A stretch of DNA of 64,000 nucleotides from Kushneria sinocarnis (GTDB lineage Bacteria > Pseudomonadota > Gammaproteobacteria > Pseudomonadales > Halomonadaceae). The stretch is from assembly GCF_003633775.1 (NCBI RefSeq), contig NZ_RBIN01000006.1, positions 62,001 through 126,000 of the forward strand. Direction: 5' to 3'. A program made the translations under genes and the position numbers. The first letter of the stretch is position 1. Every line of letters starts with the position of its first letter. This document shows, in pieces, positions 56,554 to 60,238 of this stretch. The notes under the pieces were generated by a model. That model was given only the letters and a program-made list of their open reading frames with translations, was not told where the DNA came from and did not search any database.

Positions 56554-59313
56554 TCAGCTCAGCTGTCCGTGACACTGCTTGTATTTCTTGCCGGAACCGC
56601 ACGGGCAGGGATCATTACGCCCTACCTTGGGGGCATCGCGACGTACCGTCTGCTGACCACCCTCGGCAGCCTCGCCGGCAGCAGCCACTGCCTCGCTGTC
56701 GAGTGGCGTTTCGGCTTCTTCCTCGATTGCGGCCAGCGCTTCATCCTCGCGACTCATGGCACTGCTGGCCTGCTCGCGTGCCAGCGACTCGCGACGCTCG
56801 CGCTCGAGCTCCTCGACCTCATTCTGCTGGCGCACCTGCACATGGGAAAGAATGCGCACCACGTCGGACTTGATGTTGTAAAGCAGGGTCTGGAAGAGGC
56901 CGAAGGCTTCACGCTTGTACTCCTGCTTGGGGTTACGCTGGGCGTAACCGCGCAGGTGAATGCCACGGCGCAGGTTGTCCATCGCCTGCAGATGCTCCTT
57001 CCAGCGGGTATCGAGCACCTGCAGCATGACCTGCTTCTCGAAGCGCCGCATCATCTGCGGGCCAACAGCCACCTCCTTCTCGGCCCAGGACTTGCGCAAC
57101 TGCTCCTGCAGCCGCTCGCGCAGGACCTCCTCATGGAAACCGTCTTCATCGGCCCATTGGGTTACCGGCGCATCGAGACCGAACTCCTGACGCAAATGCT
57201 GCTCCAGACCTTCCAGGTCCCACTGCTCCGGCAGGCTCTGGGGTGGCACGAAGTCGGAAATGGCGGAATCGAGCACTTCGACACGCAGATTCTGCACGTT
57301 TTCCGAAATATCATCGGACGCCAGGATATCGTTGCGCTGATCATAGACCACCTGGCGCTGATCATTGGCCACGTCATCGTATTCGAGCAGCTGCTTGCGG
57401 ATGTCGAAGTTGCGTCCCTCGACCTTGCGCTGGGCCCGCTCGACGGCATTGGACACCATGCGATGCTCGATGGCTTCGCCCTTTTCCAGCCCCAGCGCCC
57501 CCATCATGCGCTGCACCCGGTCGGAGCCGAACAGCCGCATCAGGTTATCCTCGAGGGAGAGGAAAAAGCGGGTCGAGCCCGGATCGCCCTGACGCCCCGA
57601 GCGGCCGCGCAGCTGGTTGTCGATGCGCCTTGACTCGTGCCGTTCCGAGCCGATCACGTGCAGGCCACCCGCTTCCAGTACGGCATCATGACGACGCTGC
57701 CAGTCGGCACGGATCGCCTCTACCTGCTCCTCGGAGGGGTTGTCGAGCTGAGCCACCTCGTTCTTCCAGCTGCCGCCCAGCATGATGTCGGTACCACGAC
57801 CTGCCATGTTGGTGGCGATGGTCACCGTCCCGGGGCGCCCCGCCTGGGCGATGATATCCGCCTCGCGCGCATGCTGCTTGGCATTGAGCACGTTGTGCGC
57901 CACCTGCTGCTTGCGCATCATTTCGGAGAGGATCTCCGAGCTTTCGATCGAGGCCGTCCCCACCAGCACGGGGCGATTTCCGGCCATCTTCTCCTTGATG
58001 TCCTCGATGATCGCTTCGTACTTCTCGGTGGTGCTCATGAAGACCAGATCATTGAGATCCTGGCGCGCCATCGGCCGATTGGTGGGAATGACCAGCACGT
58101 CCAGACCATAGATCTGCTGAAACTCGAAGGCTTCCGTATCGGCCGTACCGGTCATCCCGGACAGCTTGTCATAGAGCCGGAAATAGTTCTGGAAGGTGGT
58201 CGAGGCGAGCGTCTGACTCTCCTTCTGAACCTCGACTCCCTCCTTGGCTTCAACCGCCTGGTGCAGTCCCTCGGACCAGCGTCGACCGGGCATGGAACGA
58301 CCGGTGTGTTCGTCGACGATGATCACCTCACCCTCGTTGACCACATAGTCGACGTCACGATGGAACAGGTGACGGGCGCGCAGTGCGGCATGAACGTGAT
58401 GCAGCAGGCCGAGATTCTGGGCCGCATAGAGGGATTCGTTATCGTCAAGCAGCTGTTCGCGCTGCATCACCATTTCTACTGTCTGGTGACCACGCTCGGT
58501 CAGCTCGACCTGCTTTTGCTTCTCGTCCATGGTGAAGTCCCCGGAATCGGGGTCTTCCTCATCCTCGCAGGGGTGCAGCTCGCCCACCAGTCGATTGACG
58601 ACATTGTAGAGGTTGGTGTCCTCTTCCACCGGACCCGAGATGATCAATGGCGTACGCGCCTCGTCGATCAGGATCGAATCGACCTCATCGATGATGGCGT
58701 AATGATGCGTGCGCTGGACCTTGTCCTCGAGCGAGAACGCCATGTTGTCGCGCAGGTAATCGAAGCCGAACTCGTTGTTGGTACCGTAGGTAATGTCGGC
58801 ACCGTAGGCAGCGCGCTTTTCATCGGCATTCTGGCCGGAATAGATGACCCCGACACTCAACCCGAGAAACTCGTAAAGCGGCCGCATCCAGTCGGCATCA
58901 CGACTCGCGAGATAGTCGTTGACGGTCACCACGTGCACGCCGAGTCCGGAGAGCGCGTTGAGGTAGACGGCCAGGGTAGCCACCAGCGTCTTGCCCTCAC
59001 CGGTCTTCATCTCGGCGATACGCCCTTCATGCAGCGCGATACCGCCGATCATCTGCACGTCGAACTGACGCATGCCCATGACCCGCTGGCTGGCCTCACG
59101 CACAGTGGCAAAGGCTTCGGGCAGCAGCTTGTCGAGGCTCTCTCCTCCTGCCAGTCGATCGCGGAACTGTTGCGTGCGGGCCTGAAGGTCGGCGTCGCTC
59201 AATGCCTGAAGATCGGACTCCAGGGCACTGATGCGCTCGACGCTCTTGCGCATGCGCTTGACTTCGCGCTCGTTCTTGCTGCCGACCAGCTTGCGTACCA
59301 GTGTGTTCAACAT
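56554..59313 (-). CDS. secA: Preprotein translocase ATPase SecA
   Basis: Motor of the Sec secretion pathway, 919 residues. Walker A GEGKT is at 105-109, the DEAD-like box [19 protein letters not shown] near 208 and the second nucleotide-binding domain has [13 protein letters not shown] near 505. The extreme C-terminus is the zinc and SecB-binding tail [14 protein letters not shown]. The ribosome site AGGA is nine bases before the ATG and can pair with a segment upstream, in the manner of the E. coli secM-secA message. A possible leader gene ends 48 bases upstream on the same strand. Confidence 0.98.
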
Positions 59314-59323
59314 CGAAAAATGT

Positions 59324-59359
59324 CCTGTAATGACGTAACTCGGTTCGAAAAATGACAGG
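59324..59359 (-). promoter_or_regulatory. RNA hairpin that can hide the secA ribosome binding site
   Basis: On the minus strand CCTGT (59359-59355), three bases after the stop codon of the upstream reading frame, is complementary to ACAGG (59328-59324), whose AGG is part of the secA ribosome site AGGA. The stem is only 5 bp with a 26-base loop, so it is weak alone. A ribosome paused at the end of the upstream frame would cover or melt the first arm. Direct repeats TCGAAAAATG (59313-59322 and 59345-59354) flank the region. Confidence 0.4.
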
Positions 59360-59361
59360 CT

Positions 59362-59724
59362 TCACGAAACGAGTGGCGGCCCACGACGACACAGGCAGTC
59401 GCTGCCGGCGGTCATGGGCAGCACATGCATGGCAGCACGACGCGGCGAAATCAGGCGACAGCATGACGGTGGCTGCCGGCGCAGCGGAAAACGGCGACAG
59501 CGCTGCGCTACCCGGCGCCGCGAAACGGCGCGAATGGCCGCCGGTGTATGAAAACAGATACGAAACAGTCGGTCGGTCACCAGCTCGAATCGTGCCTGCC
59601 CCAGCCCGATCGGCAGCAGACAACCGATGAGCAATCCGGCCAGCCACCAGCGAGGCATGGGATAACGGCGCGGACGCACCATACCATCGGAGCGGGTCAT
59701 ACTGTCTTTGAAACCATCGGACAT
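59362..59724 (-). CDS. Candidate SecM-like leader (arrest) peptide upstream of secA
   Basis: Reading frame of 120 residues from ATG 59724, or 98 from ATG 59658. It is not a recognised family. After MVRPRRYPMPR comes a hydrophobic core (WWLAGLLIGCLLPIGLG) and a possible signal-peptidase site after GQA. The rest is Arg- and Cys-rich. It ends CLCRRGPPLVS, placing Arg-Gly-Pro-Pro three residues before the stop, where E. coli SecM has Arg-Ala-Gly-Pro four residues before its stop. The gene directly precedes secA, and the secA ribosome site can pair with bases just after the stop. Third-position GC is about 67%, not decisive; another frame from about 59545 is as GC-biased, and no start has a good ribosome site. 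The frame may be spurious. Confidence 0.4.
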   Translation of the reverse strand: MSDGFKDSMTRSDGMVRPRRYPMPRWWLAGLLIGCLLPIGLGQARFELVTDRLFRICFHTPAAIRAVSRRRVAQRCRRFPLRRQPPSCCRLISPRRAAMHVLPMTAGSDCLCRRGPPLVS

Positions 59725-59767
59725 GGTAGATTGAGTGGAACCTGAACCCGGTGCAGCAAGCAAGCCC

Positions 59768-60238
59768 ATGAGTATAAAGGCTAAAGCCGGACGAGCCCAG
59801 TCCGCTGCAAAACTGTTCACTCACCAGGGCACCCTCGCCCCGCTGATTCGTACGGCACAACTGCTGGCCGAGGCACAGCAACAACTCGATGCTCATCTCC
59901 CCGAAGAGCTGCACGGTCATGTGGCCGTCGGCGGCTATCGTGAGGGCCGTCTGACCCTGATCACCGATCGTGCCGTCTGGCTGACCTGGCTGCGCTTCGA
60001 GCAGCGCCGTCTGCTGACGCTGCTCAACCAGATCCGCGGACTGGAAACCCTGCAGGGACTGCAATTCAAGGTACGTCCCATCCGCCCCCTCTACCAGCCG
60101 GTGCACCAGCCCCGTCATCTGCCCGCCGAGGCCGCCGAGCAGCTGCGCATGTGCGCCAGCGATACCAGTGATCGCCATCTGCGCCGGGCGCTGGAGCGGC
60201 TCGCCAGCCACGGCGATCGCAACCCCGACAGCTCCTGA
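59768..60238 (+). CDS. dciA: DciA family (DUF721) replicative-helicase loader
   Basis: Protein of 156 residues of the DUF721/DciA family, which assists DnaB loading in bacteria lacking DnaC. The KH-like core runs from LAEAQQQLDAHLPEELHGHV (near residue 35) through GRLTLITDRAVWLTWLRFEQ (near 60) to QFKVRPIRPLY (near 100). The tail is charged. The ATG at 59768 gives the basic N-terminus MSIKAKAGRAQSAAKLF. It lies between lpxC and secA on the opposite strand, a common position in Pseudomonas and relatives. Confidence 0.85.
   Translation: MSIKAKAGRAQSAAKLFTHQGTLAPLIRTAQLLAEAQQQLDAHLPEELHGHVAVGGYREGRLTLITDRAVWLTWLRFEQRRLLTLLNQIRGLETLQGLQFKVRPIRPLYQPVHQPRHLPAEAAEQLRMCASDTSDRHLRRALERLASHGDRNPDSS

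Follow-up and report, generated by a model that had tools for sequence, protein, structure and literature searches.

The reading frame directly 5′ of secA in the window, the whole 64,000-nucleotide stretch of Kushneria sinocarnis DNA analyzed here, very likely encodes an arrest peptide of the RQH family, with a RAPP-like end, that monitors Sec export and sets the expression of secA. The original prediction of an arrest leader before secA received strong comparative support from the conservation of the frame, the RGPP motif, a natural RAPP variant, a near-constant spacer and a linkage to secA that was constant in the loci read. The gene order is lpxC, the divergent dciA, the leader and secA. 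secA occupies positions 56554..59313 on the minus strand (Pfam SecA_DEAD, P-loop_SecA, SecA_SW, SecA_PP_bind and SEC-C), and dciA, the divergent neighbor of the leader, occupies positions 59735..60238 on the plus strand (Pfam DciA, E 1.8e-12).

As predicted, a same-strand reading frame is present directly upstream of secA. It ends in ...DCLCRRGPPLVS (the C-terminal end also being given as ...SDCLCRRGPPLVS), and its stop codon, at 59362-59364, is separated from the secA ATG by 48 nt. Its start had been placed at 59724. That ATG and a GTG at 59820 both lie upstream of the likely start, an ATG at 59700, to which we moved the beginning of the gene. As this codon aligns with the starts of relatives, the leader protein comprises 112 residues. 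The gene for the candidate secretion-monitoring arrest peptide thus spans 59362..59700 on the minus strand (112 codons plus stop), and its translation was verified. In relatives, the leader ATG is usually preceded by AGC or AGT, mostly in a GACAGC-type sequence. Neither consensus promoters nor terminators were detected between 59300 and 59950, and no terminator-like site was found between the leader and secA. The presence of a known RNA element at the leader region was rejected, as a search of Rfam over 59200-60000 returned no matches up to E 1.

The leader frame is a true protein-coding gene, and purifying selection acts on it. Comparison with its closest relative, found in the sister genome (locus L003), yielded a pS of 0.50, a pN of 0.105 and a dN/dS of 0.14, with 17, 10 and 47 changes at codon positions 1, 2 and 3, respectively. 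The remaining two frames of that strand had pN/pS values of 1.34 and 2.17, versus 0.21 in the leader frame; the reverse frames gave 1.16, 0.30 and 3.1, and the frame at 0.30 has two stops. The signal core and the arrest motif, both described below, contain no nonsynonymous changes relative to L003. The comparison of synonymous with nonsynonymous changes that had been proposed as a check of the leader therefore came out in its favor, and relatives were detected in 257 of the 275 family genomes. Among the 262 six-frame ORFs of 60 to 250 residues within the window, only the leader carries RGPP within the last 25 residues. Across 82 leaders, this motif is encoded by five of the six Arg codons, all four Gly codons and, at each Pro, all four Pro codons; as RGPP is kept while its synonymous codons vary freely, selection acts on the peptide. 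The region is rich in long frames and plus-strand ORFs overlap the place of the leader, as might be expected if the frame were open by chance in non-coding, GC-rich DNA and contained RGPP by accident. This possibility is refuted by the frame-specific synonymous pattern, the family-wide conservation of the leader and the uniqueness of its RGPP among the ORFs of the window, and we consider it extremely improbable.

The arrest motif, DCLCRRGPP, corresponds to residues 101-109 (59374..59400, minus strand). Between RGPP itself, at 59374-59385, and the stop codon lie three residues, exactly as predicted. D101 and R106-G107-P108-P109 are invariant in an alignment of 29 leaders. All of the 82 distinct leader-to-secA stretches collected contain RGPP, in a scan whose filter required GPP. 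Among the loci that this filter missed, L141, L169 and L186 have RGPP and L124 has RAPP, and secA follows the leader in L186 too. The invariant terminal RGPP or RAPP that had been expected in relatives was thus present throughout the 86 distinct leaders read, with RGPP in 85 and RAPP in one. Asp was found at -5 in 79 of the 82 leaders, Val at -4 in 69 and Leu at -3 in 69. The residues after RGPP are unconserved, and this tail is 1 to 15 residues long. The leader with RAPP (L124 in G025) has it at the same place as RGPP in the others; it comes from genus g6, of which this was the only genome read out of six. Another leader, L130 (G274), has SRRGPP, and its stop is located 207 nt from secA, the longest gap of the panel.

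A signal-like segment at the beginning of the leader was also predicted, and a hydrophobic stretch is indeed present. Hydropathy peaks at 2.19 for the best 15-residue stretch, at residues 20-34, compared with 1.89 for the upstream extension of the frame, and the best stretch exceeds 1.6 in all 82 leaders. The signal or transmembrane core, RWWLAGLLIGCLLPIGL, which includes Cys27, covers residues 17-33 (59602..59652, minus strand), and the leader is probably an exported protein, whose signal may be cleaved, anchored or lipid-modified. M1 is invariant in the 29-row alignment, as are W19, L20, A21, L24, C27, L28, L29 and P30 in the core. A second conserved block, RLFRICFHTPAAIRAVSRR (residues 44-62; 59515..59571, minus strand), harbors the invariant R57, A58 and S60. 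Signal sequences are usually far less conserved than this core, which is only slightly relaxed in wider members (WLLTG in L141, WWLTG in L169, CLFP in L124 and CLWP in L178). A lipobox accounts incompletely for the Cys that is invariant in the 29-row alignment: most of the aligned leaders have a lipobox-like L-[VI]-[GS]-C, L125 has FGC and L141 has VTC. The distance from the Pro of the CLLP-type signal to the stall Pro is 74 to 81 residues in 81 of 82 leaders. The sequence of this middle region is loose, with a pN/pS of 0.48 among eight genus members; a middle whose length is kept and whose sequence is not is what a force-sensing tether would be expected to look like.

Relatives of the leader were found in all 10 genomes of the genus, the window's own included, and are 82% identical to it in one genome and 46-51% identical in eight others. 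A leader model (A1) built from the 29 aligned leaders gave the family-wide matches, which cover 20 of 24 genera and again include the window's own genome; positions are listed for a part of the 257 matches. Two of the 18 family genomes without a match are incomplete and also lack secA. The other 16, in genera g13, g15, g19 and g22, have secA without a leader match, indicating that the device is dispensable. A draw of 390 genomes at the order level gave 19 matches, 18 in the family and 1 outside, and among the 372 sampled genomes of the order's other families no leader match was found beside secA. The outside match (G545) was rejected, being weak (E 6e-4) and located on contig C1 while secA of that genome is on C13. 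We also inspected 40 secA upstream regions from the other families, hand-picked among the matches listed; none of the 37 that could be oriented contained a uORF ending in [RQH][AG]PP. NCBI places the Halomonadaceae in the Oceanospirillales, and GTDB places them in the Pseudomonadales.

In 14 genomes of g13 and g15, a long frame resembling M23 peptidases stands at the leader's place before secA (loci L129, L131-L135, L137, L138, L142-L146 and L148). The M23 domain was confirmed by Pfam in L132, the single such locus scanned. An M23 motif precedes secA in 19 of the 37 orientable loci of the order's other families as well.

In a search of more than 30,000 genomes for secA, secDF and yidC uORFs, Fujiwara et al. 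(2024) defined a family of arrest peptides with RAPP-like ends, RQH (PMC10987492). According to the accessible part of that paper, one of them, uA_RQH_Pseudomonadales, is a secA uORF with R109GPP on which ribosomes of both E. coli and B. subtilis stall in vitro (arrested fraction above 0.9); in the RQH members that were toeprinted the third motif residue is in the P-site at the stall (PMC10987492). Among the arrest cores compared in a further report, in its accessible part, it is generally RGPP that gives the most robust arrest (PMC12992588). The kind of leader described here is thus already known, and its conservation is striking. The suggestion that it might be new holds only in part, as RGPP secA uORFs, including a Pseudomonadales group that stalls ribosomes, were published in 2024 (PMC10987492); the conservation map is what we add to them.

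uA_RQH_Pseudomonadales is a group of the order Pseudomonadales as delimited in GTDB r202. The distribution of the leader indicates that it very probably is this Halomonadaceae leader family. Both are secA uORFs with an N-terminal localization signal, a spacer of more than 30 residues and a terminal RAPP-like motif, and the Arg position of the tested member, 109, is matched by 11 of our 82 leaders. RQH members are small proteins without an annotated function whose genes precede a sec or yidC gene, and they have an N-terminal signal or transmembrane segment. The leader is encoded before secA, its N-terminal segment is apparent from hydropathy, and for the four leaders searched Pfam gave no match over the cut-off (best E 0.1) and NCBIfam gave none. 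The main text of Fujiwara et al., in its accessible part, makes no mention of Halomonas, Halomonadaceae, Kushneria or Chromohalobacter (PMC10987492), and a search of the accessible literature found no paper on a secA arrest peptide in Halomonas or on SecM in Halomonadaceae or Oceanospirillales.

The leader resembles SecM of E. coli in its probable export, its place directly before secA, and an arrest motif near the end with an Arg-x-x-Pro core. In contrast with SecM, it is devoid of the FxxxxWIxxxxGI stretch and has RGPP instead of RAGP; the SecM arrest sequence FxxxxWIxxxxGIRAGP is absent from the leaders of the 29-row alignment. Pfam and NCBIfam contain SecM models. As neither the alignment nor the searches of these two databases with four leaders gave any sign of it, homology with SecM was rejected, consistent with the initial remark that the sequence is otherwise unlike it. 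ApdP and ApdA are RAPP arrest peptides that have the RAPP-like core in common with the leader, and with L124 RAPP itself. They belong to other lineages, Alphaproteobacteria and Actinobacteriota, and ApdP precedes secDF (PMC10987492, accessible part). uDF_RQH_Enterobacterales of Alteromonas naphthalenivorans also arrests with RGPP, according to the accessible published account; a stem-loop covers the ribosome site of the gene that follows it, and arrest induces this gene. Its target is secDF2, unlike that of the leader, which precedes secA.

We infer that the leader regulates secA in K. sinocarnis, and it very probably senses export and tunes secA production. By analogy with the published RQH toeprints, the ribosome would stall at the third motif residue, so that the P-site holds P108, the first of the two RGPP prolines. 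Once the Sec machinery engages the signal, it would pull on the chain and end the stall, so that slow export would give longer stalls. RNA models at the level of the family suggest a pairing between the secA ribosome site and codons located at the stall site or next to it, and a stalled ribosome would free the ribosome site from this pairing. For the window's species the models predict no such freeing, and the leader may be coupled to secA in another way. It could be argued that the leader is instead a small secreted or membrane protein of an ordinary kind and that its ends are conserved for another function, without ribosome arrest, since the highly conserved signal core and the Cys invariant in 29 rows go beyond what arrest would demand. 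However, C-terminal conservation is limited to the segment that would lie near the peptidyl transferase center and does not extend to the residues after RGPP, RGPP is a published arrest core (PMC12992588, accessible part), and the place of the leader before secA is constant in the loci read. An ordinary secreted protein is therefore very unlikely in our view, and we favor the arrest peptide.

For the RNA side of such an arrest, we calculated for 74 loci, i.e., the 82 distinct loci minus near-identical ones, how much energy it takes to open the secA site when a ribosome footprint covers the stall and when it does not. The mean stall-dependent gain was 1.77 kcal/mol, compared with 0.44 for pooled synonymous codons (sd 0.17, maximum 0.93 of 40) and 0.63 for codons shuffled inside each leader (sd 0.15, maximum 0.91 of 20), in tests that count related genomes as independent and use the footprint as a crude stand-in for the ribosome. 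A rerun on a longer stretch gave 1.83 (null 0.34, maximum 0.58 of 10). With the footprint shifted 36 nt upstream the gain was 0.28 (null 0.07, maximum 0.25), and with a shift of 72 nt it was -0.11 (null 0.05). The gain reached at least 1 kcal/mol in 39 of the 74 loci, and a loss of at least 1 was found in 7; 48 loci were above their own null mean in the within-leader shuffle. In these models, pairing of the secA ribosome site with the codons of the stall site or its immediate neighbors is thus predicted family-wide, above synonymous shuffles and chiefly at the stall position.

Where the family pairs, the upstream arm is provided by codons of the arrest motif or by those immediately on either side of it. 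In L030 and L036, GATGTCCTG (D-V-L) pairs with CAGGACATC; in L026, GAGGTCCT (R-G-P) pairs with AGGATCTC, and L031 has a similar pairing; in others, such as L167 and L159, the codons just after RGPP contain the arm or form part of it. A cognate test on the D-V-L windows gave a modest result, with 23 of 5000 permutations as good, and for five other regions 343, 2984, 363, 371 and 2385 permutations were as good. As three of these five lean the same way, the cognate signal may partly reflect composition or ancestry, and the codon-shuffle tests weigh more. We consider the chances about even that the arrest-site nucleotides are doubly used, encoding D-V-L-x-x-RGPP and forming the anti-ribosome-site of secA, as GATGTCCTG would against CAGGACATC. 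The peptide would then halt the ribosome on top of its own regulatory helix or at the border of this helix, and the choice of synonymous codons would evolve together with the secA ribosome site.

At the window's locus, the secA ribosome-binding site, ACAGGA (59323..59328, minus strand), begins 15 nt before the secA ATG. The original prediction paired it with CCTGT just after the leader stop (59355..59359, minus strand). These letters are present, but the predicted pair probability of CCTGT with ACAGG is only 0.002-0.005 in free RNA; placing a ribosome on RGPP brings it to 0.09-0.48. The pairing would thus barely form in free RNA and rise with the stalled ribosome, opposite to the release required. 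With this wrong direction in the folding model and the absence of the post-stop CCTGT in L003, it was rejected as an anti-ribosome-site. Another CCTGT, within the C-L-C codons of the motif (59391..59395, minus strand) and kept in L003, may be a weak anti-ribosome-site arm, with a predicted pairing of at most 0.009 in the window and 0.23 in L003. With a ribosome at the stall, the predicted gain in opening of the secA ribosome site is -1.6 kcal/mol in the window and -1.3 kcal/mol in the sister. As both are among the losing loci, the RNA switch is a family tendency and not a demonstrated property of the window's locus; the proposal that a stalled ribosome opens the secA message thus agrees with the RNA models for the family mean and disagrees with them for the window and its sister.

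Arrest might also regulate secA through translational coupling or mRNA protection, without freeing a sequestered ribosome site. Such a mode would fit the secA ribosome site of the window and its sister, predicted to be about half open and not to be opened by a stalled ribosome. It would also fit the secA start codon, which with the footprint is predicted to be somewhat more open in the window in three of four folding contexts, though not in the sister. However, the mean stall-dependent opening over the 74 genomes exceeds the synonymous nulls, and we regard this alternative as possible but rather unlikely.

Taken as an RQH-type arrest peptide before secA, the leader represents an arrest device that almost every sampled genome of a single bacterial family possesses. 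Our analysis contributes a family-wide map, a conserved signal core, a near-fixed spacer and a natural RGPP/RAPP swap, together with the M23 gene where the leader is missing and a statistical case for arrest-site codons doubling as an anti-ribosome-site. The many natural variants make the needs of the arrest core testable, be it RGPP versus RAPP, the Asp at -5 or the near-constant spacer, and they make the codon-level RNA constraints directly testable as well. If the leader works as proposed, secA in these bacteria would follow export load.
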